Source: Actinokineospora baliensis (GTDB lineage: Bacteria; Actinomycetota; Actinomycetes; Mycobacteriales; Pseudonocardiaceae). Taken from it: a stretch of 64,000 nt of DNA. Under the pieces are notes generated by a model. That model searched no databases and was not told the DNA's origin. It worked only from the letters and a program-made list of their open reading frames with translations. Shown in pieces: positions 47,653-60,823 of this stretch (its first letter is position 1; each line of letters begins with the position of its first letter). Both the position numbers and the translations under genes were made by a program. The DNA is taken from assembly GCF_016907695.1 (NCBI RefSeq), contig NZ_JAFBCK010000001.1, positions 1,860,001 through 1,924,000 of the forward strand, read 5' to 3'.

Positions 47653-48504
47653 GTGACCCGCATGCGGGTCCGGACTCCGGCCGAGATGGCCAGCGCGCTC
47701 GACCAGGTCGGGTACCTGGCCGACGAAGGCCTCGCCACGGCCGCCTACCTCGCCGTGGCGATGGGGCGGCCGCTGTTCTGCGAGGGGGAGCCGGGCACAG
47801 GTAAGACGGCCCTGGCGACCGCGTTGGCCTCGGCGTTGGGTGTCGAGCTCGTGCGGCTCCAGTGCTACGAAGGCATAGACGCCACGCAGGCCCTCTATGA
47901 GTGGGACTTCCCGCGGCAGCTTCTTGAGCTAAGAGCTGGTACGTCCGTCGAGTCGCTCTACACGCGGAGGTTCCTCCTAGCTCGACCGTTGCTGCGGGCG
48001 TTGGAGTCGCCGTGTGTGCTGTTGGTCGACGAGATCGACCGCGCGGACGACGAGTTCGAGGCGTTCTTGCTGGAGGTGTTGAGCGAGAGCGCGGTGACGG
48101 TGCCGGAGCTAGGGGAGATCCGCGCCGCAGTGCCGCCGTTGGTGGTTCTTACGTCGAATCGGACGCGAGAGGTGCACGACGCTCTTAAGCGGCGATGCCT
48201 CTACCACTGGTTGGATCACCCTTCGCTTGATCGTGAACTCGCGATTCTCCGGAAACGGCTACCGGGCTTGGAAGAGCGGTTGGCGACCCAGGTTGTAACG
48301 GCCGTTAGGCGGCTGCGTGAGATGGAGTTGTTGAAGCCACCAGGAGTGGCTGAGACGATTGACTGGGCGGCCGCTCTTGTCGCCTTGGGGCGCGAAAGCG
48401 CTGACGTGTCGACGGCGGCCCTGACGCTGGGTGCGGTCTTGAAGTACCGCGAGGACGTCGACCGGGTCGTGGCCGCCGGGCTGGACGCGCTCCTCGCCGG
48501 TTGA
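47653..48504 (+). CDS. coxD: MoxR/CoxD-type AAA+ ATPase
   Basis: A 283-residue AAA+ protein. Walker A GEPGTGKTALATALA (about 44-58), Walker B VLLVDEIDRADDEFEAFLLE (about 121-140), sensor 1 VLTSNRTREVHDALKRRCLY. The segment LQCYEGIDATQALYEWDFPR is the CoxD signature. CoxD works with the VWA protein CoxE to mature the copper/molybdenum active site of aerobic CO dehydrogenase-type enzymes. Its partner coxE is 6.1 kb downstream, separated by the Pls-like block. The ATG at 47662 is an alternative start. Confidence 0.88.
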   Translation: MTRMRVRTPAEMASALDQVGYLADEGLATAAYLAVAMGRPLFCEGEPGTGKTALATALASALGVELVRLQCYEGIDATQALYEWDFPRQLLELRAGTSVESLYTRRFLLARPLLRALESPCVLLVDEIDRADDEFEAFLLEVLSESAVTVPELGEIRAAVPPLVVLTSNRTREVHDALKRRCLYHWLDHPSLDRELAILRKRLPGLEERLATQVVTAVRRLREMELLKPPGVAETIDWAAALVALGRESADVSTAALTLGAVLKYREDVDRVVAAGLDALLAG

Positions 48505-48754: not shown

Positions 48755-48795
48755 CCTGGCGCGGACCAGTCACACTACTCCCGGTCCGCGCCAGG
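48755..48795. terminator. Second hairpin spanning the M1 peptidase stop
   Basis: CCTGGCGCGGACC and GGTCCGCGCCAGG are perfect 13-base complements around a 15-base loop containing the peptidase stop codon. It lies two bases from the first hairpin, giving a double terminator. Confidence 0.8.
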
Positions 48796-50151
48796 CGTTC
48801 GGCGTGGGAACGCGGGCAGAACGGGCGAGTTCAGCCAGCTCGCGAACAACTCGGTCAGCGGCCACGGGGTGTGCCGCTGCGCCAATGTCGTGAATTCCTC
48901 GGTTGTGACCGTGCTGTGCCGGTGCGCCGAAGTCCACACCTTCAGCAGCGCGAAGAACCGCTCGTCGCCCAGCCGCAGGCGCAGCGCGTGCAGGGTGACC
49001 GCGCCGCGCAGGTACACGCGGTCGTCGAACAGGTGCCGGGTGCCCGGGTCGGCGATGCGCAGGTCCTGCGGCAGGTCCGACAGTTGGCGCCACGCGCGTC
49101 GGGCGTGGTTGTCGGCGGGCTCGCCGCCGGAGGCCTCTGACCACAGCCACTCCGCGTAGTTCGCGAAGCCCTCGTTGAGCCAGATGTGCTGCCACCGCGC
49201 CACGGTGAGGCTGTTGCCGAACCACTGGTGCGCCAGTTCGTGCGCGACGAGCCGCTCGCTGCCGCGCACGCCGTCGACGTGGTTGCTGCCGAACACCGAC
49301 AGCGACTGGGCCTCGATCGGGGCGTCCAGCTCGGCGTCGACCACGACCACCCCGTACTGCTCGAACGGGTACGGGCCGAACATCCGCTCGAACTCGACCA
49401 GCATCCGCGGCTGGCGGCCGAAGTCGTGCTCGAACGGCGCGGCGAGCCTGGCGGGCACTGCGGCGTGCATCATCGGCACCGTCGCGAACGACGACTCGGT
49501 GTACCGTCCGATTTGGACGCTCACCAGGTACGTCGGGGTCGGCTGCGAGAGCCGGAAGTCCCACCTGGTCAGGCTGGCCGACGACTGCTTGGCCTCCAGC
49601 ACCCCGGTGGCGACCACCTGGTACGACGAGGCGACCGCCACCGAGATCCGGTAGGTCGCCTTGTCGCTGGGGTGGTCGTTGCACGGGAACCAGGACGGCG
49701 CGCCGACCGGTTGGCTCGCGACGATCACGCCGTCGTCGAGGTAGTCCCACCCGATCTCGCCCCAGTGGCTGGGGATCGGCGCCGGTGAGCCGGTGTAGCG
49801 GATCTCCACGGTGAACCGGCCGCCGTCCGGCAGGGCGCGGTTCGGGGTGATCTGCAGCTTCTTGCCGCGCTGGGCGTAGCGGACCGGCTTGCCGTTGACG
49901 CTGACCTTGCCGCTGCGCAACCCCGCGAAGTCCAGGCTGAACCGCGATAAGGCCTGGGTGGCCACCGCGGTGATCCTGGCGCGGCCCTCGAGCCTGCCGG
50001 GACCGACGCGGTAGGTCAGGTCCAGGTCGTAGTGCAGCACCCGGTAGCCGCCGTTGCCGTGGTTGGGCAGGTAGGGGTCCGGTGATGTGCTCGCGCCGGG
50101 CTGCCCGGCGCGAGCCGGGTCAGCCTTGGCGCTCATACCCACATTCAACAT
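48775..50151 (-). CDS. M1-family zinc metallopeptidase (aminopeptidase N-like)
   Basis: A 458-residue gluzincin, shorter than full aminopeptidase N because it lacks the C-terminal helical domain. Zinc motif HELAHQWFGN (about 307-316) with the third ligand in NEGFANYAEW 18 residues later. The substrate N-terminus-binding segment is APIEAQSLSVFG in place of GxMEN. No signal peptide is seen at the ATG 50151 start. It begins 17 bp after the stop of the Pls-like synthetase, so they form an operon. Known epsilon-poly-lysine producers have zinc aminopeptidases that degrade the polymer, so a trimming or self-protection role is plausible but inferred. Confidence 0.88.
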   Translation of the reverse strand: MLNVGMSAKADPARAGQPGASTSPDPYLPNHGNGGYRVLHYDLDLTYRVGPGRLEGRARITAVATQALSRFSLDFAGLRSGKVSVNGKPVRYAQRGKKLQITPNRALPDGGRFTVEIRYTGSPAPIPSHWGEIGWDYLDDGVIVASQPVGAPSWFPCNDHPSDKATYRISVAVASSYQVVATGVLEAKQSSASLTRWDFRLSQPTPTYLVSVQIGRYTESSFATVPMMHAAVPARLAAPFEHDFGRQPRMLVEFERMFGPYPFEQYGVVVVDAELDAPIEAQSLSVFGSNHVDGVRGSERLVAHELAHQWFGNSLTVARWQHIWLNEGFANYAEWLWSEASGGEPADNHARRAWRQLSDLPQDLRIADPGTRHLFDDRVYLRGAVTLHALRLRLGDERFFALLKVWTSAHRHSTVTTEEFTTLAQRHTPWPLTELFASWLNSPVLPAFPRRTPGADRE

Positions 50152-50168
50152 GACGACCGGGGCTCCAG

Positions 50169-53100
50169 TCAGCGCTTGCCCGGCCACGCGGCGATCGGGT
50201 TGCCCAGCCAGCGACTGCCGTCCGGTACCGATTCACCCCGCATGACCAGCGACGCCGGGCCCACAGTGGTCCGTTCGCCGATGGACGCGCCGGGCAGCAC
50301 GATCCCGTGCGGACCGAGCGTGCCGCCCTCGCCCACGGTCACCTGCGCCATGCGCATCACGCGGTCGTGGAACAGGTGGGTCTGCAGCACGCAGCCGCGG
50401 TTGACCGTGGCGCCGTCGCCGACGTGCACGAGGTCGGCTTCGGGCAGCCAATAGGTCTCCACCCACGCGCCCTTGCCGATCTTGGCGCCCAGGCCGCGCA
50501 GCCACACGGACAGCAGCGGCGAGCCGTGCGCCCAAGTCGCGAACCACGGCACTGCGAGCATCTCGACGAAGGTGTCCGCCAACTCGTTGCGCCACACGAA
50601 CGAGCTCCACAGCGGATGGTCCACAGTGCCGAAGCGACCCACCAGTGCCCACTTCGCCGCGATCGCCACTAGGCAAGCGACAACACCCGCGCCGAACAGC
50701 AGGAGACCCGCAACCGCGAGGCCCAGCCAGAAACCGGTGTAGGTCAGCGCTGCCGCGACCAGGAACAGAAGCGCGGTTGACGCCATGACCGGAACCACGC
50801 GGCACACCTCAACCAACGCGCGCGCGACCATGAGCCTCTTAGGCGGATCGAAGGTCTTGCTCTCGTCGGAGTCTTCAACCGTGCGCGGCAGCTTGATTGG
50901 CGGCATACCAAGGTAAGAGGAGCCAGCCTTGGCCTTCTTAGGCGTAGAGGACAGCACACCGACGAGGCCCCGCTTGGGGACAGCCCGGCCGGGCGCGGTC
51001 ATGCCGGAGTTGCCGAGGAAGGCGCGCTTTCCGATGCTCGCCTCGCCGATCCGCAGCCAACCGCCGCCGAGCTCGTAAGAGCCGATCATCGTGTCGTCGG
51101 CGAGGAAGGCGCCATCGCCAACGGTGGTCATGCTCGGCAGTGCCAGCACCGTCGATGCCTCGACCCGCTTGCCGACCTTCATGCCAAGCGCCCGTAGCCA
51201 CACCGGGGTCAGCAGGCTCGCGTACATCGGGAACAGCCCGGAGCGGGCCATCTCCATCAGTCGCTCGGTCGCCCAGGCCTGCCACGCGACGCGGCTGTGC
51301 ACGGCGTGCTTACCAGCCCGGAGGCGTAGCGACAGCAGCCGAACCAGGACCAGGATGAGCAGCGCGTACGCGGCCATCCAGGTCAGCGTCACGGCCGGAA
51401 CCGCCACCATCGCCTGGACAGTCGCAGCGCCGAGCGTCGTCGTCCCTTCGAGGAACGCGGACAGCACCAGCAGCGCCGGTACGGCTGCCGCGATCGGCAG
51501 CACACTCAGCACGAACGACGTCATCGCGTAGATGGCCACCCAGCGACGACGACGCGCGGGACGGGAGCCGGTGGCGTTGGCCTTACCGGTGCGCGCGGCG
51601 GGGGACCCGGACCAACGCTGCCCGGCGGGAACTACGCCGAGCACACCAGAGCCCGCAGCGACCTCGGCACGCTTACCCACCCGCGAACCGGGGAACAGCG
51701 TGCTGCGCGCGCCGACCGTGGCGTGGGCGTCCACCCGAACCTGGCCGATGTGCAGTACGTCGCCGTCCAGCCAATGGCCGGAGAGGTCCACCTCGGGCTC
51801 GATGGCCGCGCCGCGACCAAGCCGCAGCATGCCGGTGACCGGCGGCAGCGAGTGCAGGTCGACCTCGTCGCCGATCCGCGCGCCGAGTGCACGCGCGTAG
51901 TGCGTCATCCACGGCGCCCCTTGGAGCCCGGCGGCGCCCGTAAGGTCCACGATCCGTTCCGCGGCCCACAGCCGCAGGTGGACACTGCCGCCACGCGGGT
52001 ACGAGCCCGGTTTCACGCCGCGCAGCAGCAGGCGTGCGCTACCGGCCGCGAGGGCCATACGACCCCACGGGCTCAGGAAGACGAACCAGCCCGCGAGGAC
52101 GAGCCACCACGACACGTGGGGCGCCCACGAGAAGCCCAAGATGTTGTTCACCGCAGCCAGTGCGACGACCCACCGGGCGCCAACGACCGTCAGCATCGGG
52201 AGGGTCAAGAGCGTCTGGATGACCTGCGCGCGGCGCGGCGTCGGCAGGACGACCCGGTCGACCTGGGTGCTGGCCGCGGCCGCGTCGATGTGGTCGGCGA
52301 GCTTGCCCAGCGTGGGGTGCTGGTAGAGGTCCGCGACCGCGATGCTCGAATACTGCTCGCGGATCTTCGAGACCAGCTGCGCGGCGGACAGGCTGCCACC
52401 GCCGTTGGCGAAGAAGTCGGCCCTCGGGCTGCTGACCGCCACACCGAGCAGGTCGCGCCAGAGACCGGCCAGCCAGCGCTGGGTGTCGGTCAGCGCTGCC
52501 GTGTCGACCTCGGAGGTGTCGAGGTCCAGCGGCCACGGCAGTGCGTTGCGGTCGACCTTGCCGGACGTGCGGGTCGGCAGGGTGTCGACTTCGGCGATAA
52601 GAGGCACCAAAGCGGCCGGGAGCTCGGTCCGCAGCTGCTCCACAGCGGCGTCAGCGTCGAAACCCTCGGTCGCGACCACGTAGCCGACAAGAAGTTGGTT
52701 ACCGGCGGCCGTAGTGCGAACAGCGGCGGCAGCGCCAGCCACGTTCGGCAGGCCCTGCAGCGCGGCATCGACCTCGCCGAGTTCGATGCGCCTACCGCCG
52801 AGCTTGATCTGCTCGTCGGCCCGGCCGAGGAACAGCAGCCCCTCGGGTTCGGCCTTCACCATGTCGCCACTGCGGTACGCGCGGTCCCACGACAGCGCGG
52901 GCAGCGCGGCGAACTTCTCGGCGTCCTTCACCGGGTCCAGGTAGCGGGCCAGGCCCGCGCCACCGATGACGAGCTGGCCGGTGCCGCCCATCGGCACCAG
53001 CTCGCCAGCCTCGTCGACGACGGCCAGCTCCCAGCCGTCGAGCGGCAGGCCGATGCGCACCGGGCCCTCGCCGGTCATCCTGGCGCCGCAGGCCACCACG

Positions 53101-54068
53101 GTCGCCTCGGTCGGGCCGTAGGTGTTCCACACCTCCCGGCCCTCGATGGCCAGCCGCTCGGCCAGCTCGGGCGGGCACGCCTCGCCGCCGAAGATCAGCA
53201 GCCGGATGTCGTCGAGCGCGTCGGCGGGCCACAGCGCGGCCAGCGTCGGCACGGTCGACACCACGGTGATGGCCTTCTCGACCAGCCACGGGCCCAGGTC
53301 GACGCCGGTGCGCACCAGAGCGCGCGGCGCGGCGACGAGGCACGCCCCGTTGCGCCAGGCCAGCCACATCTCCTCGCACGAGGCGTCGAACGCGACGGAC
53401 AGGCCCGCCAAGACGCGGTCGTCGGCGTTGATGGGCTCGTCGGGCAGGAACAGCTCCGCCTCGGCGTCCACGAACGCGGCGGCGCTGCGGTGGCTCACCG
53501 CGACGCCCTTGGGCTTACCAGTGGAGCCTGAGGTGAAGATGATCCAGGCGTCGTCCTCGGTGGTCGGCGCGCCGGGGCGCCCGAGCGGGGTGGCGCCGGG
53601 CCGCAGGGTGATGGACCGGTGCTCACCGAGGATCGCGCAAGCGTTTGCCTCGCCGAAGACCAGTTCGGCGCGCTCGTCCGGGTCGTCGAAGTCGACCGGC
53701 ACGTAGGCGGCACCGGCGGCGAGCGCGGCGAGGATGCAGATGTAGAGGTCGGCGGTGCCGGACGGGGCGCGGATGCCCACCCGGTCGCCGCGGCCGACAC
53801 CGGCCTCGGCCAGCCGCGCGGCCAGGGTGCCGACCTCGGCCAGCAGGGCGCGGTAGCTGAGCACGGTGGTGCCGTCGTCGATGGCGTCCGCGTCGGGGTG
53901 CCGGGCGGCGGTGGCGGTCAGCACGTCGACCAGGGTGCGCGGTGCGCTCTCCGGGCCCGCGCGGAACACGGCGAGCCCCAGCGCCGCGGCGTCGGCGAGC
54001 GGGTCGAGGGCGGTGAGCAGAGGAGCCGGGGGGTGGACCATCGTCATCGCGGCGAACGCATTTCTCAC
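50169..54068 (-). CDS. Pls/PosA-class single-module NRPS, probable homo-poly(amino acid) synthetase
   Basis: 1299 residues, close to the 1319 of Streptomyces Pls. Adenylation domain 45-510: A3 FTSGSTGKPKG (178-188), A5 NTYGPTE (315-321), A10 Lys504. Carrier domain 530-600 with the phosphopantetheine Ser559 in FFANGGGSL. From about 615 to the end, about six membrane segments alternate with three soluble blocks that contain hexapeptide-repeat acyltransferase-like sequence (WLDGDVLHIGQVRVDAHATV and similar); this is the Pls terminal domain that joins monomers without a condensation or thioesterase domain. By alignment with GrsA the pocket is Asp228, Ala229, Glu232, Ser271, Ile292, Gly294, Thr316, Val324, Val325, Lys504, i.e. 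DAESIGTVVK, near the lysine code DAESIGSVCK. Product inferred: a polymer of lysine or a related basic amino acid. Confidence 0.88.
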   Translation of the reverse strand: MRNAFAAMTMVHPPAPLLTALDPLADAAALGLAVFRAGPESAPRTLVDVLTATAARHPDADAIDDGTTVLSYRALLAEVGTLAARLAEAGVGRGDRVGIRAPSGTADLYICILAALAAGAAYVPVDFDDPDERAELVFGEANACAILGEHRSITLRPGATPLGRPGAPTTEDDAWIIFTSGSTGKPKGVAVSHRSAAAFVDAEAELFLPDEPINADDRVLAGLSVAFDASCEEMWLAWRNGACLVAAPRALVRTGVDLGPWLVEKAITVVSTVPTLAALWPADALDDIRLLIFGGEACPPELAERLAIEGREVWNTYGPTEATVVACGARMTGEGPVRIGLPLDGWELAVVDEAGELVPMGGTGQLVIGGAGLARYLDPVKDAEKFAALPALSWDRAYRSGDMVKAEPEGLLFLGRADEQIKLGGRRIELGEVDAALQGLPNVAGAAAAVRTTAAGNQLLVGYVVATEGFDADAAVEQLRTELPAALVPLIAEVDTLPTRTSGKVDRNALPWPLDLDTSEVDTAALTDTQRWLAGLWRDLLGVAVSSPRADFFANGGGSLSAAQLVSKIREQYSSIAVADLYQHPTLGKLADHIDAAAASTQVDRVVLPTPRRAQVIQTLLTLPMLTVVGARWVVALAAVNNILGFSWAPHVSWWLVLAGWFVFLSPWGRMALAAGSARLLLRGVKPGSYPRGGSVHLRLWAAERIVDLTGAAGLQGAPWMTHYARALGARIGDEVDLHSLPPVTGMLRLGRGAAIEPEVDLSGHWLDGDVLHIGQVRVDAHATVGARSTLFPGSRVGKRAEVAAGSGVLGVVPAGQRWSGSPAARTGKANATGSRPARRRRWVAIYAMTSFVLSVLPIAAAVPALLVLSAFLEGTTTLGAATVQAMVAVPAVTLTWMAAYALLILVLVRLLSLRLRAGKHAVHSRVAWQAWATERLMEMARSGLFPMYASLLTPVWLRALGMKVGKRVEASTVLALPSMTTVGDGAFLADDTMIGSYELGGGWLRIGEASIGKRAFLGNSGMTAPGRAVPKRGLVGVLSSTPKKAKAGSSYLGMPPIKLPRTVEDSDESKTFDPPKRLMVARALVEVCRVVPVMASTALLFLVAAALTYTGFWLGLAVAGLLLFGAGVVACLVAIAAKWALVGRFGTVDHPLWSSFVWRNELADTFVEMLAVPWFATWAHGSPLLSVWLRGLGAKIGKGAWVETYWLPEADLVHVGDGATVNRGCVLQTHLFHDRVMRMAQVTVGEGGTLGPHGIVLPGASIGERTTVGPASLVMRGESVPDGSRWLGNPIAAWPGKR

Positions 54069-54152
54069 CTTTTCTTGCAGCTATGCGGAGGGCGGTTGCC
54101 CCAGGTCGTGGCCGTTCCAGCGCCACGACCAGAGCACGTTACCGGTCGTGAC

Positions 54153-54171
54153 ATCGACCTGTCTCGTCGAT
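54153..54171. promoter_or_regulatory. Inverted repeat in the pls-padR intergenic region, site 1
   Basis: ATCGAC, 7 bp, GTCGAT. A perfect 6-bp palindrome arm pair about 85 bp upstream of the synthetase start. Confidence 0.4.
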
Positions 54172-54232
54172 CTATTACCGACGTGGTGCGGTTCACATCC
54201 TTGTGCCACAAGGGTTTTCCTATCGGGATCAG

Positions 54233-54249
54233 ATATCGGTTCACGATAT
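54233..54249. promoter_or_regulatory. PadR-type operator candidate, site 2
   Basis: ATATCG, 5 bp, CGATAT. A perfect inverted repeat with the ATAT-rich arms usual for PadR operators, in an unusually A+T-rich patch of the divergent promoter region. Confidence 0.55.
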
Positions 54250-54298
54250 TTGCGGTTGCTGGGCCGTGTGGACTGCGGTTTTCGCCGCTTCTCCTGCT

Positions 54299-54319
54299 CG
54301 ATATCGAGGTGCGATATCG
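54299..54319. promoter_or_regulatory. PadR-type operator candidate, site 3
   Basis: CGATATC, 7 bp, GATATCG. A perfect inverted repeat ending 7 bp before the padR start codon, sharing the GATATC core with site 2; suitable for autorepression. Confidence 0.6.
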
Positions 54320-54326
54320 TGGAGCG

Positions 54327-54626
54327 ATGGATGTGGTGCGTGAGTTCGCCAACGGGGCGCTGCGGTTGCGGGTGCTGCGCTACGCGGCCAACGAGGAGGT
54401 CCACGGGGCCTTGCTGACCGAGGAGTTGGCCGCACGGGGGCACCGCGTGTCGCCGGGCACGCTGTACCCGCTGCTGCACCGGCTGCAGGAGGCCGGGCTG
54501 CTCAAGTCGCGCACCGAGGTCGTCGGCGGCAGGCGGGTCCGCCGCTACCGGACGACCAAACGCGGCAAGAAGGTCCTGGCCGACTGCAAGGCCGTGCTGG
54601 CCGAACTGGCCGACGACGTGGCCTGA
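54327..54626 (+). CDS. PadR-family transcriptional regulator
   Basis: A 99-residue winged-helix protein of the minimal PadR size: MDVVREFANGALRLRVLRYA, then VHGALLTEELAARGHRVSPG and TLYPLLHRLQEAGLL (recognition helix and wing). It is divergent from the Pls-like gene, with three inverted repeats between them, so it likely controls that operon and itself. ATG 54327 is set by homology; much longer in-frame extensions run through the promoter region. coxE starts 34 bp after its stop. Confidence 0.9.
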   Translation: MDVVREFANGALRLRVLRYAANEEVHGALLTEELAARGHRVSPGTLYPLLHRLQEAGLLKSRTEVVGGRRVRRYRTTKRGKKVLADCKAVLAELADDVA

Positions 54627-54660: not shown

Positions 54661-55758
54661 GTGAGTCAGGTAGCCCCGCTCCCCGGTTTCGTCGGGTTCG
54701 CAGTGGCGTTGCGAGCCGCTGGCGTGAACTGCGGTTCAGAGCGCGTAAGGGCCTACCTGGCTGCCATAGAGCTGCTCGACCTCGCAGACGTCAACCAGGC
54801 CTACTGGGCGGGCAGGCTCACCCTGTGCTCCGAGCCCGACGACCTGCCCCGCTACGACAACGCCTTCCACGCCTGGTTCAGCGGTGACACCCCACGCGCG
54901 CCTAGGCCGACCCAGGACCCTCGGCCAAAGCGCGGTCACATCGCTGCTCTAGTCGCGGGCAGGTCCACTGATGGCGAGAGCGCTACTCACATAGACCCGC
55001 TGGCCAGCTCCGCGGAGGTCCTGCGGCACCGGGATCTTGCCGACCTCACTGCCGCGGAGCGGGCACACCTGCGCGAGATGATCGACCTTTTGCGTCCCGA
55101 GCCACCCCAGCGACCTGCGGTGCGGTGGCGCCCCAACCGACGCGGCCGGGTCGACGAGCGCCGCACGCTGCGCATGATGCGTGCCACGGGCGGCGAGCCC
55201 ATGCGCATCGCCCGTAAACGCCGGGCCAGTAGGCCTCGTCGGGTGGTCCTGCTGGTCGACGTGTCCGGCTCGATGACGCCCTACGCAGACGCGCTGCTGC
55301 GTTTCGCACACGCTATGGCTCGTCGCGCGCCTACAGAGGTGTTCACCCTCGGGACCCGCCTAACGCGGCTCACTCGACAACTACGCCAACGCGACCCCGA
55401 ACAGGCTCTTACCGCTGCCGCCCGCGCGGTGCCCGACTTCGCCGGTGGTACCCGGCTCGGTGAGACGCTCCGGGCGTTCTTGGACCGCTGGGGTCAACGG
55501 GGTGTCGCGCGGCAGGCGGTCGTCGTGCTGTTCTCCGACGGGTGGGAGCGCGGCGACCCGTCGCTACTCGCCGCCCAGATGGCCAGGCTGAGCCGCCTCG
55601 CGCACCGGGTGCTCTGGGTCAACCCGCACGCGGGAGCAGCGTCCTACGAGCCCGTGCAGTCCGGCATCGCGGCGGCACTACCGCACGTTGACCGGTTGCT
55701 CGCCGGGCACAGCGTGGCCACACTCGACCTCTTGCTCCGGGAGGTGCGCCGTGCGTGA
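54661..55758 (+). CDS. coxE: CoxE-type VWA-domain protein
   Basis: A 365-residue protein with a C-terminal von Willebrand factor A domain. MIDAS begins VVLLVDVSGSMTPYADALLR (about 198-217), with later Thr in GGTRLGETL and Asp in VVVLFSDGWERGD. The N-terminal part (FVGFAVALRAAGVNCGSERV) is typical of CoxE. It pairs with the CoxD ATPase for maturation of the molybdenum hydroxylase. It overlaps xdhC by 8 bp. Confidence 0.9.
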   Translation: MSQVAPLPGFVGFAVALRAAGVNCGSERVRAYLAAIELLDLADVNQAYWAGRLTLCSEPDDLPRYDNAFHAWFSGDTPRAPRPTQDPRPKRGHIAALVAGRSTDGESATHIDPLASSAEVLRHRDLADLTAAERAHLREMIDLLRPEPPQRPAVRWRPNRRGRVDERRTLRMMRATGGEPMRIARKRRASRPRRVVLLVDVSGSMTPYADALLRFAHAMARRAPTEVFTLGTRLTRLTRQLRQRDPEQALTAAARAVPDFAGGTRLGETLRAFLDRWGQRGVARQAVVVLFSDGWERGDPSLLAAQMARLSRLAHRVLWVNPHAGAASYEPVQSGIAAALPHVDRLLAGHSVATLDLLLREVRRA

Positions 55759-56863
55759 CGTGCTCGACGAGGTCCTGCGCCGCTACCAGGCGGGCGAGCC
55801 GGTCGCTCTCGGGACCGTCGTCGCCACCTTCTCGTCCGCACCGAGGTCACCTGGCGCAGCCATGGTGGTCGCGACGGATGGCACCGTCACCGGCAGTGTC
55901 TCTGGGGGGTGCGTCGAAGGAGCCGTCTACGAACTCGGCAGGGAAGTCCTCGACACCGGTAGTCCTGTTCTGCAGCGCTATGGCGTGAGCGATGACGACG
56001 CCTTCGGGGTGGGTCTTACCTGCGGCGGGATCATCGACATCTATGTAGAGCGCATCGCCGCCGACACCTTCGCCGAGTTCGAGCAGCTCGCCGAGTCGGT
56101 GCGGGCCGAGGTCCCCGTCGCTGTCGCGACCGTCGTCGCCCACAGCGACCCGGACCGGCTGGGGCGGCGCATCCTCGTCTGGACGGACCGGCACGCCGGG
56201 AGCACCGGCTCGGACCGGGTCGACGCCGCCGTCGTCGACGACGCCCGCGGCCTGCTCGCGGCGGGGCGCACCGGCATGCTCGGGTACGGCCCGGACGGGG
56301 AGCGGCGCGGCGAGGGCATGTCGGTGTTCGTCAGCTCGTTCGAACCACCGCCCCGCATGCTGGTGTTCGGCGCGATCGACTTCGCGGCCGCCATGGCGCG
56401 GATGGGCGCCTACCTCGGCTACCGGGTCACGGTCTGCGACGCGCGGCCCGTCTTCGCCACGACCAGCAGGTTCCCCAGCGCCCACGAGGTGGTGGTCGAC
56501 TGGCCGCACCGCTACCTGGAGCGGCAGCTCGCCGAGGGCAAGGTCGACGAGCGCACGGTCGTCACGGTCCTGACCCACGACCCCAAGTTCGACGTCCCCG
56601 TCCTGCAGGTCGCGCTGCGCGCGAAGCTCGGCTACGTCGGTGCCATGGGGTCGCGGCGCACCCACGCGGACCGGCTGGCCCGCCTGCGCGACGCCGGTCT
56701 GACCGAGGCCGACCTGACTGCGCTGGCTTCGCCTATAGGCCTCGACCTGGGCGCGCGGACCCCGGAGGAGACCGCCGTGTCGATCGCGGCGGAGATCATC
56801 GCGACCCGGTGGGGCGGTGGCGGGCAGCGGCTGTCCGTCCTGTCCGGACGCATCCACGGCTAG
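55751..56863 (+). CDS. coxF: XdhC/CoxF-family molybdenum-cofactor maturation protein
   Basis: 370 residues. N-terminal XdhC/CoxI domain (RSPGAAMVVATDGTVTGSVS, GGCVEGAVY, GLTCGGIIDIYVE) and C-terminal Rossmann domain (MLVFGAIDFAAAMARMGAYL, then GYVGAMGSRRTHADRLARL). XdhC proteins bind molybdenum cofactor, support its sulfuration and insert it into xanthine-dehydrogenase-type enzymes. GTG 55751 lies inside the end of coxE, so the genes are coupled. Confidence 0.9.
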   Translation: MRDVLDEVLRRYQAGEPVALGTVVATFSSAPRSPGAAMVVATDGTVTGSVSGGCVEGAVYELGREVLDTGSPVLQRYGVSDDDAFGVGLTCGGIIDIYVERIAADTFAEFEQLAESVRAEVPVAVATVVAHSDPDRLGRRILVWTDRHAGSTGSDRVDAAVVDDARGLLAAGRTGMLGYGPDGERRGEGMSVFVSSFEPPPRMLVFGAIDFAAAMARMGAYLGYRVTVCDARPVFATTSRFPSAHEVVVDWPHRYLERQLAEGKVDERTVVTVLTHDPKFDVPVLQVALRAKLGYVGAMGSRRTHADRLARLRDAGLTEADLTALASPIGLDLGARTPEETAVSIAAEIIATRWGGGGQRLSVLSGRIHG

Positions 56864-56981
56864 TCGGCGCCGTCCCCAGTGGAACCACGCTGACCTGCGG
56901 ATACCCCAATGGCGGGGGTCAGTTGTCCACAGGTCGGCCGATCGGGCTTGTCGGGACGGTCGAACCGGGGCAGGCTGGTTT

Positions 56982-57010
56982 GTGAGCCCGATCACGCGCC
57001 ACGGGCTCAC
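56982..57010. promoter_or_regulatory. Inverted repeat before coxS
   Basis: GTGAGCCCG, 11 bp, CGGGCTCAC: a perfect 9-base inverted repeat in the 182-bp gap between xdhC and coxS, ending 35 bp before the coxS start. It could be an operator or a processing hairpin that sets structural-gene expression apart from the maturation genes. Confidence 0.4.
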
Positions 57011-57045
57011 CCGGGCTGACCACCACGCCACCGCTGGGAGGCAGG

Positions 57046-57537
57046 ATGCGCATCACCGTCACCGTCGACGGGACCACCTACACCGACGAGGTGGAACCGC
57101 GAAAGCTGCTGGTCCACCACTTGCGCGAGACCATCGGCAAGACCGGGACCGTCGTCGGCTGCGACACGAGCAACTGCGGCTCGTGCACGGTGCACCTCAA
57201 CGGCCAGAGCGTGAAGTCCTGCTCGGTGCTCGCCGTGCAGGCCGACGGCGCCGAGGTCACCACCATCGAGGGCCTCGCCCGCGACGGCGTGCTGCACCCC
57301 GTGCAGCAGGCCTTCCACGACAACCACGCCCTGCAGTGCGGTTTCTGCACGCCGGGGATGATCATGCAGTCGATCGACCTGCTCGCCGACGACCCGGACC
57401 CGGACGAGGACACCGTCCGGCACGGCCTGGAGGGCAACCTCTGCCGCTGCACCGGCTACCAGAACATCGTCCGGGCGGTCCAGGACGCGGCCCAGAAGCT
57501 CAAGCCCGGGTCGCACCAGCCGGTTGGGGGTCAGTGA
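57046..57537 (+). CDS. coxS: Molybdenum hydroxylase iron-sulfur subunit
   Basis: A 163-residue protein with two [2Fe-2S] domains. The ferredoxin-type site is [16 protein letters not shown] plus a fourth Cys in VKSC; the helical site is CGFCTPGM and CRCTGY. Length and order match CoxS. It passes electrons from the molybdenum site to the FAD subunit. ATG 57046 follows GGGAGGCAG; its stop overlaps the coxL start by one base. Confidence 0.95.
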
Positions 57538-59972
57538 TGACCGCGACCGCGGAACCCGAGGTCGGCAAGGCCAGGCTGCGCAAAGAGGACGCTCGGCTGA
57601 TCACCGGCCGCACCCGGTGGACAGACAACCTCAGCGTCCCCGGGCTGCTCCACCTGGCTTTCCTCCGCAGCCCCGTCGCACACGCGAAAATCACCTCTAT
57701 AGACGTCGAGGAAGCTAGGCACAGGCCCGGCGTCATAGCGGTGTTCACCGGTCGAGACCTCGCGGAGGCCCAAGGCAGCCTCCCCTGTGCTTGGCCGATC
57801 ACAGCGGACCAGAAGGCCCCCACAGCGCCCTCACTAGCGGTCGACCAGGTGAACTTCGCCGGTGAGGCCGTGGCGGTCGTAGTCGCTCGCGGCAACGCAG
57901 AGGCGCACGACGCGCTAGAGGCCATAGAGGTCGAGTACGAGGATCTCCCGGTTGTGCTCGACATGACGGCCGCGGTCGCCGACGGCGCCGACCTCGTCCA
58001 CGCGGATCTAGGCACCAACAAGTCCGCGCATTGGGTGTTCGACTCCGCGGAGGCGGGCACCGGCGGCGATGTGGAGCAGGCCATCGCGGACGCGGAGGTG
58101 CTCATCGAGCGCACATACCGCCAGCAGCGTCTCATCCCGGCCTTCATGGAGCCGCGTTCTGTCCTCGTAGACCCCACCGGTGAACAGACCACCGTGTGGT
58201 CCGCCACGCAGATCCCGCACATCCTGCGGCTCATGCTGGCGCTGACCACGGGCACCCCCGAGCACAAACTCCGCGTCATCGCGCCGGACGTCGGCGGCGG
58301 GTTCGGCGGCAAGCTGCAGGTCACTCCGGAGGAAGTCGTTTCGCTGGTGGTCGCGACCCGGCTGGGCAAGCCGGTGAAGTGGACCGAAACGCGCTCGGAG
58401 TCGCTGCTGTCGGCCCACCACGGTCGCGACCAGGTCCAGAAGCTCACGCTCGCTGCCCGCCGCGACGGCACAGTCACCGGCCTCAAAGTGGACCTGCTCG
58501 CCGACATGGGCGCGTACCTGCGGCTGGTCACACCAGGCGTGCCGATCCTGGGCGCGTTCATGTTCAACGCCATCTACAAGTTCCCCGCGTACCGGTTCGC
58601 GTGCACCAACGTCTTCACCAACAAGACCCCAACAGACGCCTATAGGGGCGCGGGTAGGCCAGAGGCCACCTTCGCCATAGAGCGGCTGATGGACGAGTTG
58701 GCAGCCGAGCTCGGCCGCGACCCGATCGAACTGCGCGAGCAGAACTGGATCAAGCACGACGAGTTCCCGTTCACCACCGTGTGCGGCCTGGAGTACGACA
58801 CGGGCAACTACGAGGCCGCGACCGCCAAGGCCAAGGAGATGTTCGGGTACGACGCACTGCGCGCGGAGCAGCGGGAACGCCGCGAGCGCGGTGATGTCGT
58901 GCAGTTGGGCATCGGCACCTCCACCTTCACGGAGATGTGCGGGTTGGCTCCGTCGCGAGTGCTCGGGTCGCTGTCCTACGGCGCGGGCGGGTGGGAGCAC
59001 GCCGCCATCCGGGTGCTGCCCAGCGGCAAGGTCGAGGTCGTCACCGGGTCGTCCGCGCACGGGCAGGGACACGAGACGGCGTGGAGCCAGATCGTCGCGG
59101 ACCAGTTGGGTGTGCCCTTCGAGGACGTCGAGGTACTGCACGGCGACACCCAGTCCTCACCGAAGGGGCTCGACACCTACGGCTCCCGTTCGCTCACCGT
59201 CGGCGCGATGGCCGTGCTCAAGGCGGGGGAGAAGGTCATCCGCAAGGCGCGCCGGATCGCCGCGCACACCATGGAGTGCGCCGAGGACGACCTGGAGTTC
59301 TCGGGCGGCAAGTTCACCGTGAAGGGCACGGAACGCTCCACCGGGCTCACCGACGTCGCCCTCGCCGTCTTCGCCGCGCACGACCTGCCAGACGGCGTGG
59401 AGCCGTCGCTGGACTCCGAGGCGACGTTCGACCCGGACAACTTCTCCTTCCCGCACGGGACCCACCTGTGCGCGGTGGAGGTCGACACCGAGACCGGGTT
59501 CGTGAAGATCCGCAAGTACGTCTGCGTCGACGATGTCGGCGTAGTGGTGAACCCGATCATCGTGGAGGGCCAGGTCCACGGTGGACTCGCGCAAGGACTC
59601 GCGCAGGCGCTCTATGAAGAGGCCGTGCACGACGAAAGCGGCACGCTCACAACGGGAACACTGGCCGACTACCTCGTCCCGTCAGCCGTAGACCTGCCGC
59701 ACTTCGACACCGATCGCACCGAGACGCCGTCGACCACCAACCAGCTCGGCGTCAAGGGCGTCGGGGAGGCGGGCACCATCGCCTCCACACCCGCCGTGGT
59801 CAACGCCGTAGTGGACGCGGTGCGGCACTACGGCGTCAACGACATCCAGATGCCGTGCACGCCGATGCGCGTGTGGACGGCGATCAACGGTGGACCCACC
59901 GACGCGGGCGGCCTCGGCGGCGAGGCGGGCGGCGGCCTCGGGTCGATCGACACCAGCGGAGGTGTGGCGTGA
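57537..59972 (+). CDS. coxL: Molybdenum hydroxylase large subunit, form II CO-dehydrogenase-like
   Basis: An 811-residue molybdopterin-binding subunit of the xanthine oxidase family. The active-site loop at 368-374 is AYRGAGR, which defines form II CoxL; the proven CO dehydrogenases (form I) have AYxCSFR with the copper-binding Cys. DVGGGFGGKLQ (about 252-262), the late VGEAGTI catalytic-Glu region and GSSAHGQGHETA are conserved. The substrate is therefore uncertain: CO at low rate, an aldehyde or an N-heterocycle. It overlaps coxM by 4 bp (GTGA). Confidence 0.92.
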   Translation: MTATAEPEVGKARLRKEDARLITGRTRWTDNLSVPGLLHLAFLRSPVAHAKITSIDVEEARHRPGVIAVFTGRDLAEAQGSLPCAWPITADQKAPTAPSLAVDQVNFAGEAVAVVVARGNAEAHDALEAIEVEYEDLPVVLDMTAAVADGADLVHADLGTNKSAHWVFDSAEAGTGGDVEQAIADAEVLIERTYRQQRLIPAFMEPRSVLVDPTGEQTTVWSATQIPHILRLMLALTTGTPEHKLRVIAPDVGGGFGGKLQVTPEEVVSLVVATRLGKPVKWTETRSESLLSAHHGRDQVQKLTLAARRDGTVTGLKVDLLADMGAYLRLVTPGVPILGAFMFNAIYKFPAYRFACTNVFTNKTPTDAYRGAGRPEATFAIERLMDELAAELGRDPIELREQNWIKHDEFPFTTVCGLEYDTGNYEAATAKAKEMFGYDALRAEQRERRERGDVVQLGIGTSTFTEMCGLAPSRVLGSLSYGAGGWEHAAIRVLPSGKVEVVTGSSAHGQGHETAWSQIVADQLGVPFEDVEVLHGDTQSSPKGLDTYGSRSLTVGAMAVLKAGEKVIRKARRIAAHTMECAEDDLEFSGGKFTVKGTERSTGLTDVALAVFAAHDLPDGVEPSLDSEATFDPDNFSFPHGTHLCAVEVDTETGFVKIRKYVCVDDVGVVVNPIIVEGQVHGGLAQGLAQALYEEAVHDESGTLTTGTLADYLVPSAVDLPHFDTDRTETPSTTNQLGVKGVGEAGTIASTPAVVNAVVDAVRHYGVNDIQMPCTPMRVWTAINGGPTDAGGLGGEAGGGLGSIDTSGGVA

Positions 59973-60823
59973 TCCCAGCGGCGTTCGACTACACGGCTCC
60001 ATCCACAGTGGACGAAGCGGTGCGCGCGCTTGCCGACGCGGGCGACGACGCGAAGGTCATCGCGGGCGGCCAGAGCCTGATCCCGGTGTTGCGCATGCGG
60101 CTCGCCGCGCCGACCACCCTGGTGGACATCGGCCGGATCCCCGAACTGCGCGGCATCCGCGACGAAGGTGACTCCGTGGTCATCGGGGCAACCACAACGC
60201 ACTACGAGGTCCAGCGCGACCCTGCGGTGCGCGACCACGCCCTGTTGCTCAAGGTCGCGACGGACACCGTTGCCGATCCACAGGTCCGCCACCGCGGCAC
60301 CTTCGGCGGAGCCATAGCGCACGCGGATCCCGCGGGCGACCTACTGGCGCCGGTCCTGGCTCTGGACGCGGAGTTGGTGTTGCACGGTCTGGAGGGCGAA
60401 CGCACAGTCGCCGCTTCGGACTTCTTCGTGGACTACTTCACCACCGCACTGCGCCAAGACGAGATCCTCGTCGCAGTGCGCGTCCCGAAGCACACGGGCT
60501 GGGGCGCGCACTACGAGAAGTTCAACCGCGTTGCCCAGGCATGGTCGATCGTGGCCGTTGCCGCCGCTGTGCGCACCGAAGGCGGGGTAATCGCGGAAGC
60601 CAGGGTCGGTCTCACCAACATGTCCTCTGTGCCCGTGCGAGCGCGCGCGGTCGAAGAGGCACTGGTGGGCCAACCAGCAACTGCTGAGGCCATCAAAGCA
60701 GCGGCGGCCCACGCCGCGGATGGCACCAGCGCGACCGAAGACAGCAACGCAGATACCGCCTACCGCGAACACCTGGCCCGCGTGCTCACCTCGCGGGCTA
60801 TAGCCGCGGCGGCGGGCGTCTAG
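59969..60823 (+). CDS. coxM: Molybdenum hydroxylase FAD subunit
   Basis: A 284-residue FAD-binding protein of the PCMH fold. FAD motifs AGGQSLIPVLRMRLA (about 32-46) and RHRGTFGGAIAHADPAGDL (about 105-123) are present. It re-oxidises the enzyme by passing electrons to the quinone pool or another acceptor. GTG 59969 overlaps the coxL stop; coxG follows after 11 bp. Confidence 0.94.
   Translation: MIPAAFDYTAPSTVDEAVRALADAGDDAKVIAGGQSLIPVLRMRLAAPTTLVDIGRIPELRGIRDEGDSVVIGATTTHYEVQRDPAVRDHALLLKVATDTVADPQVRHRGTFGGAIAHADPAGDLLAPVLALDAELVLHGLEGERTVAASDFFVDYFTTALRQDEILVAVRVPKHTGWGAHYEKFNRVAQAWSIVAVAAAVRTEGGVIAEARVGLTNMSSVPVRARAVEEALVGQPATAEAIKAAAAHAADGTSATEDSNADTAYREHLARVLTSRAIAAAAGV

Follow-up and report, generated by a model that had tools for sequence, protein, structure and literature searches.

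The pls-M1-padR locus of Actinokineospora baliensis

A block of three genes, predicted to encode a synthetase of epsilon-poly-L-lysine (Pls), a zinc metallopeptidase of the M1 family and a transcriptional regulator of the PadR type, lies in a 64,000 nucleotide stretch of the Actinokineospora baliensis genome (contig NZ_JAFBCK010000001.1, positions 1,860,001 to 1,924,000), which is referred to here as the window and whose first letter is position 1 of the coordinates below. The pls gene and the M1 gene share the reverse strand, and padR is divergently orientated from pls across a set of inverted repeats. In its core the block is a pls-hydrolase pair of a known kind; its variant features are the proposed PadR switch at pls and a predicted hydrolase that has no recognised export signal. 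The features are as follows.

48775..50151, reverse strand: M1 zinc metallopeptidase, 458 amino acids (PF01433 and PF17900), a predicted poly-lysine hydrolase
50169..54068, reverse strand: pls, 1299 amino acids, GTG start codon at 54068; predicted epsilon-poly-L-lysine synthetase with an adenylation (A) domain and a carrier (T) domain followed by three units of hydrophobic hairpin plus beta-helix repeat
50172..52259, reverse strand: C-terminal polymerisation domain, Pls residues 604-1299, with three repeats, the third of which holds the invariant Q1229, H1231 and D1235
52260..54005, reverse strand: adenylation and carrier domains, Pls residues about 22-603
54219..54237: predicted operator site 1, 3/14 mismatches, overlapping site 2 in a 13-bp register
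54232..54250: predicted operator site 2, 1 mismatch, on the pls side
54300..54318: predicted operator site 3, a perfect GATATCG-N5-CGATATC (0/14 mismatches) beginning 27 bp before the padR start codon
54327..54626, forward strand: padR, a 99 amino acid PadR-type regulator (PF03551) divergent from pls

Two of the gene starts have alternatives. An in-frame ATG at 54045-54047 is a possible start of pls. The ATG of the M1 gene (50149-50151) lies 17 nucleotides past the pls stop codon on the same strand, and a longer open reading frame (ORF) of 470 amino acids begins at an upstream GTG that overlaps pls; the database protein is the 458 amino acid ATG version.

The synthetase and its predicted product

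Pls matches the NCBIfam model TIGR02353 ('Pls/PosA family') with 781.6 bits against a cut-off of 423.1, and the complete model (positions 1-695) aligns with Pls residues 616-1292. A Pfam scan at an expect value (E) of 0.001 recovers AMP-binding and PP-binding, with Hexapep and AMP-binding_C below their own cut-offs, and gives no match to a condensation or thioesterase domain. The initial annotation, made from the sequence of the window, had described a 1299-residue A-T-membrane protein of the Pls/PosA class that lacks both of these domains, and this description is borne out. It had also called the architecture rare, which does not hold, as TIGR02353 scores above its cut-off in 136 of 200 genomes of the family Pseudonocardiaceae, a count that takes in other Pls/PosA types. 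The pls gene was found in all 16 genomes searched of the genus Actinokineospora, and the closest named relatives of Pls, among the best 120 of 7768, are Actinokineospora proteins with up to 91% identity.

The best match of Pls in the PDB is 7wew, a crystallised epsilon-poly-L-lysine synthase, with 661.6 bits, and the runner-up is a two-domain gramicidin synthase with 404.2 bits summed over two stretches. The A domains of Pls and 7wew are 67.4% identical over 479 residues; for the second Pls-like protein that the genome encodes, the figure is 42.7% over 443 residues. The nine specificity residues of the window Pls, DAESIGTVV, are those of 7wew in the alignment, and the tenth position, read in the window Pls alone, is the lysine of motif A10; residues were assigned to code positions by the GrsA numbering. 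DAESIGTVV is common to 93 of the 94 readable pls loci left once the second synthetase of the genome (locus L050) is set aside (97 loci tried and 95 read, with L075 and L094 lacking a long ORF).

According to PMC10522769, code position 2 is alanine in Pls, methionine in PosA, phenylalanine in the synthetases of poly-diaminopropionate (PDAP) and poly-diaminobutyrate (PDAB), and glycine in the beta-lysine enzyme. PosA, the delta-poly-L-ornithine synthetase of Acinetobacter baumannii, shares the order of A, T and terminal domains with Pls but has the code DMEHNGTVSK and forms a single-gene operon (PMC10522769). In a tree built from 55 fetched loci, the window and 7wew as the sole characterised row, the A domain groups with Pls, although the root is unsure owing to a very long outgroup branch of 4.5 changes per column. 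The initial annotation had proposed a phylogeny with characterised synthetases, and this places the A domain with Pls; the other characterised types (poly-diaminobutyrate, diaminopropionate and PosA) entered the comparison through their codes only (PMC10522769).

The clear prediction from these residues is that Pls uses L-lysine and that its product is epsilon-poly-L-lysine. The initial annotation regarded the polymer as inferred, which still applies, but the matter is less open than it stated, since the specificity residues equal those of the 7wew Pls. A polymer of another diamino acid such as ornithine, diaminobutyrate or beta-lysine is highly improbable: specificity codes do not prove substrates and the same genome has a second synthetase with a different code, but position 2 of the window Pls is the alanine of Pls instead of methionine, phenylalanine or glycine, and the second synthetase, with its code DFECLSVVT and its neighbours dat and ask, itself looks like a diaminobutyrate enzyme.

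This second Pls/PosA protein is encoded at 3.89 Mb of the genome (3891153-3897854; L050:7154-13855) and matches TIGR02353 with 688.4 bits. Its gene is followed by dat, encoding a diaminobutyrate transaminase (TIGR00709, 458 bits, cut-off 401.6), and by ask, encoding an aspartate kinase, and among the listed ORFs of at least 200 amino acids no racemase gene was recognised by eye near it. A second synthetase of this kind occurs in at least 7 of the 16 genus genomes, with the code DFECLSVVT in five and DFECLSCVS in two. PMC8117764 gives pldA, dat and ask as genes of poly-diaminobutyrate contexts, and the second locus is predicted to be a gamma-poly-diaminobutyrate cluster. Known clusters of this type (pldA or pddA with dat and ask) employ the same synthetase family as the window but differ from it in the phenylalanine at position 2 and in having dat and ask in place of the M1 gene.

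The C-terminal domain of Pls (residues 604-1299) comprises three repeats, whose self-alignments score 107, 140 and 121, whereas shuffled sequences reach at most 60, 56 and 50. The three terminal repeats and the grouping of the A domain with Pls were the two points on which the initial annotation had let its class assignment depend, and both are found. An AlphaFold2 (AF2) model made from 46 sequences (predicted local distance difference test, pLDDT, 90.9; predicted template modelling score, pTM, 0.89) shows, three times in a row, a pair of helices and then a beta-rich unit, and its fold matches acetyltransferases with middling strength. By sequence, the third repeat is similar to hexapeptide-repeat proteins, gamma carbonic anhydrase for example (E 1.5e-5). 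Hydropathy yields six hydrophobic windows, some of which overlap, and six membrane spans are thus not proven. Q1229, H1231 and D1235 are invariant in an alignment of 46 sequences (45 of 95 available ranges plus the window), including three with a phenylalanine code, which makes them candidates for active-site residues.

The M1 peptidase as a probable partner of Pls

The zinc motif HEXXH-18-E is intact in the window M1 (HELAH-x18-E), in agreement with the initial annotation of a zinc M1 peptidase 17 bp behind the synthetase. An M1 gene is linked to pls in all 16 genus genomes and stands behind pls at 69 of 80 named actinobacterial loci; these 80 score highest against the 7wew A domain out of at least 592 relatives and are therefore not a random sample. 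The motif is present in 68 of the 69 named M1 proteins, the exception being that of L085. Of the 11 named loci without an M1 gene, four are situated at a contig end (L053, L094 and L101 with 0-2 nucleotides left, L107 with 757 nucleotides), and at L057, L060, L061, L067, L077, L096 and L106 no M1 match was found within stretches of 2.4-5.6 kb. These seven comprise five Kitasatospora or close kin, judging from the A-domain tree, one Streptomyces rimosus and one Kocuria.

The window M1 is the best match in its genome for three PldII-like proteins of Streptomyces (47-49% identity); the same queries share 37-38%, 33% and 26-29% with the other three M1-like proteins of the genome. The window M1 is predicted to cut epsilon-poly-L-lysine, and its linkage to pls within and beyond the genus, together with this best-match relation, is in support of the suggestion in the initial annotation that it acts on the polymer. 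The same annotation considered the system possibly new, which it is not, since the M1 gene stands behind pls at most of the named loci and pls-peptidase operons have been published for Streptomyces and Corynebacterium (PMC8117764, PMC4361855, PMC9223678). CC55 and Actinokineospora sp. PR83 are named in PMC9973853.

Two published systems invite comparison. The S. albulus pls-pldII pair, represented here by L051 (92% identical in the A domain), resembles the window in synthetase architecture, in specificity residues and in having an M1-type peptidase gene immediately behind pls in the same orientation (PMC4361855, PMC9223678, PMC8117764), but its two genes are reported to be coupled and to overlap by 4 nucleotides (PMC4361855, PMC9223678), whereas a gap of 17 nucleotides separates those of the window. 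The S. albulus-like M1 enzymes moreover carry an export signal, none being recognised in the window M1, and form a separate clade, and the divergent padR with its operators was not found at the S. albulus-like loci examined. Corynebacterium variabile likewise has an operon of Pls and a peptidase, and this Pls, 51% identical to that of Streptomyces, makes epsilon-poly-lysine when expressed in S. coelicolor (PMC8117764); it is compared here by its Pls and operon.

Predicted location of the M1 enzyme

The published role of the hydrolase, which is to protect the cell surface against secreted polymer, rests on S. albulus, whose PldII is reported to sit at the external face of the membrane (PMC9205021, PMC9223678). 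Export signals were sought by hydropathy in up to 70 codons before the domain, with a threshold of 1.5, and by inspection. None was seen in the window M1 and its 15 genus relatives, nor altogether in 77 of the 85 pls-linked M1 enzymes, the window included. The eight in which a signal was seen are all from Streptomyces, seven above the threshold and L071 added by eye; the PldII-like protein of L051 and those of six other Streptomyces begin with a twin-arginine-like signal. Read from its ATG, the window M1 begins without any hydrophobic stretch, its best 15-residue score being 0.05. A tree was built from 53 sequences (51 of the 85 M1 proteins, with two paralogs from the A. baliensis genome as the outgroup), and in it the enzymes with a signal make up a clade of their own (98/88), as do those without (97/98). 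The A-domain tree, with its very long outgroup branch, nests the S. albulus group among lineages whose M1 is signal-less. No title among the best-matching literature was on the point of a PldII signal peptide or an intracellular location.

Because no export signal was seen, the window M1 most likely acts on polymer that is still inside the cell, and for want of a recognised export signal it is classed as a PldII relative, not as PldII. An enzyme that reaches the surface by a non-classical or unrecognised route and guards the producer from its secreted polymer, as in S. albulus, seems improbable by comparison. The operon order is the same as in S. albulus, the relation to the Streptomyces PldII-like proteins is one of best match, surface location and self-protection are published for PldII (PMC9205021, PMC9223678), and the N-terminus of the window M1 is mildly hydrophobic when read from the upstream GTG (1.35). 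Yet exported and signal-less enzymes fall into separate clades, most pls-linked enzymes lack a visible signal where the S. albulus-like ones have a twin-arginine-like one, and two other M1 paralogs of the same genome do have signal-like or lipobox-like starts by eye. The hydrophobic stretch read from the GTG contains no twin arginine and lies about half before the ATG, and charged residues interrupt the corresponding stretch in L036-L038.

The PadR regulator and its predicted operators

PadR contains the domain PF03551 (57.9 bits, cut-off 27) and scores 111.1 against the NCBIfam Rv3488 family, below the cut-off of 140. Its gene is divergent from pls and beside it in all 16 genus genomes, in which the relatives are 75-93% identical. 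At E 1e-4 no PadR relative was found near 79 of the 80 named pls loci, and the sole match is weak (39% identity over query residues 12-64, 1.2 kb upstream). Among the loci examined a PadR of this kind thus stands beside pls only in Actinokineospora. The parts available of the S. albulus expression studies that mention PadR contain no link between PadR and pls.

Copies of GATATCG-N5-CGATATC, with GATATC units 13 bp apart, occur between padR and pls in two groups. Each of the 16 genus genomes has a padR-side site at -27 with no more than 1 mismatch and a pls-side site at -94 to -96 with no more than 3; the spacers vary, and the two groups are always 67-69 bp apart. The 16 intergenic regions hold 56 sites with up to 4 mismatches against a shuffled mean of 0.91 and a maximum of 5, counts that are to be read with the shuffle keeping single-base composition only, with overlapping sites allowed and with related regions; the inverted-repeat sites are far beyond chance. 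The initial annotation had the PadR gene face the synthetase across three inverted repeats as part of one unit, and the three sites of the window and the constancy of the arrangement throughout the genus confirm this.

In the 7.68 Mb genome of A. baliensis, site 3 is the sole perfect copy, and only sites 2 and 3 have at most 1 mismatch. Among 120 genomes of the family a perfect site occurs in six, always beside this PadR or a relative: four are Actinokineospora, all with the site in the pls-padR intergenic region, and one each belongs to two other genera, in which a PadR relative (58% and 55% identical) lies within about 0.5 kb of the site and no pls was seen in the stretches examined around it. 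Another two PadR relatives (54% and 48%) are accompanied by sites that deviate at 1 or 2 positions, and a reversed control pattern occurs in none of the 120 genomes. As the perfect sites all adjoin this PadR or a relative, it is strongly supported that GATATCG-N5-CGATATC belongs to this PadR, most simply as an operator through which it would control its own gene. The presence of the site at PadR relatives that have no pls in the stretches examined means that it speaks first for self-control and for control of pls only by position; that PadR also controls pls would follow from the pls-side group of sites. PadR and its GATATC operator look like a portable, probably self-controlled module.

The same operator at PadR relatives (54-58%) of other genera is found at L172:4775-4819, L173:5076-5107 and L183:1501-1519. 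The L172 site adjoins a glyoxalase-like gene and the L173 site DoxX-like and permease-like genes, as named by eye. Between the operator and the pls start of the window lies a TTCACA...TGTG block (54189-54215), several columns of which are identical in 16 of 16 genus genomes, and it is possible that this block is a second regulator site or a promoter element.

The surroundings of the block raise the question of what else PadR may serve. The M1-pls-padR block lies between a gene for a MoxR-type ATPase (47653-48504) and coxE, xdhC and the genes for three molybdenum hydroxylase subunits (54661-60823), and the order MoxR, M1, pls, padR, coxE, xdhC, coxS is kept in 11 of 16 genus genomes. With padR ending 34 nucleotides before coxE on the same strand, and a MoxR-type gene beyond the M1-pls block, a role in controlling the cox genes is a serious alternative, and the PadR relatives that have the site elsewhere, with no pls in the stretches examined, would also fit a regulator that serves only itself, its place beside pls being historical. 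Still, 5 of the 16 genus genomes gave no match to coxE in the stretch examined (the L043 contig having only 9.8 kb), and these five keep padR, pls and both site groups; furthermore, the pls-side group is retained in all 16 genomes at its 67-69 bp from the other. A PadR devoted to the cox genes or to itself is accordingly considered unlikely.

Interpretation and significance

Overall, it is rather likely that the gene set is a pls-hydrolase pair with its own PadR repressor, in which the M1 enzyme acts most likely intracellularly. By analogy with its family, Pls would activate L-lysine as an adenylate and load it onto its own carrier domain, and the membrane domain with its three beta-helix repeats would join the lysines via their epsilon-amino groups into epsilon-poly-L-lysine. 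M1 would then cut the polymer, most likely inside the cell, in the service of clean-up, chain-length control or lysine recovery. PadR is proposed to bind the GATATCG-N5-CGATATC sites at its own start as well as those nearer to pls, thereby repressing both itself and pls-M1.

Several points weigh against this reading. The polymer, the DNA binding and the location of M1 are all predictions from sequence. The judgement on export relies on hydropathy and inspection of up to 70 codons upstream of the domain, not on a trained predictor; the score of 1.35 from the upstream GTG is not negligible, about half of that mildly hydrophobic stretch being inside the ATG-called protein, and L042 scores 1.45, near the 1.36 of L071, which was counted as exported. 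The trees do not settle whether the exported or the signal-less form of M1 came first. On the regulatory side there are the short distance from padR to coxE and the PadR relatives that have the same site and no pls in the stretches examined. Finally, no polymer could be detected in cultures of C. variabile itself, although its Pls is functional (PMC8117764), and therefore the genes do not show production.

The absence of a visible export signal from 77 of 85 pls-linked hydrolases raises the question of the role of the polymer in actinobacteria that are not known as producers, and a hydrolase without a recognised export signal is of interest because it bears on that role in many actinobacteria. 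A tentative suggestion, to which we give a limited chance of being right, is that in most pls-carrying actinobacteria both the synthesis of the polymer and its breakdown by a cytosolic M1 enzyme take place within the cell, and that the polymer serves not solely, or not at all, as a secreted antibiotic; the exported hydrolase and antibiotic use would then be a feature of the S. albulus group, and in Actinokineospora a dedicated PadR would sense the state of the pool. If this were true, internal epsilon-poly-lysine would be a reserve of lysine or nitrogen, a polycation for DNA, polyphosphate or pH stress, or a chain that is proof-read before export. Silent pls genes are a stated problem (PMC8117764), and for this reason the pairing of PadR with its operator matters, as it offers, in one genus, a concrete handle for switching on such a locus.

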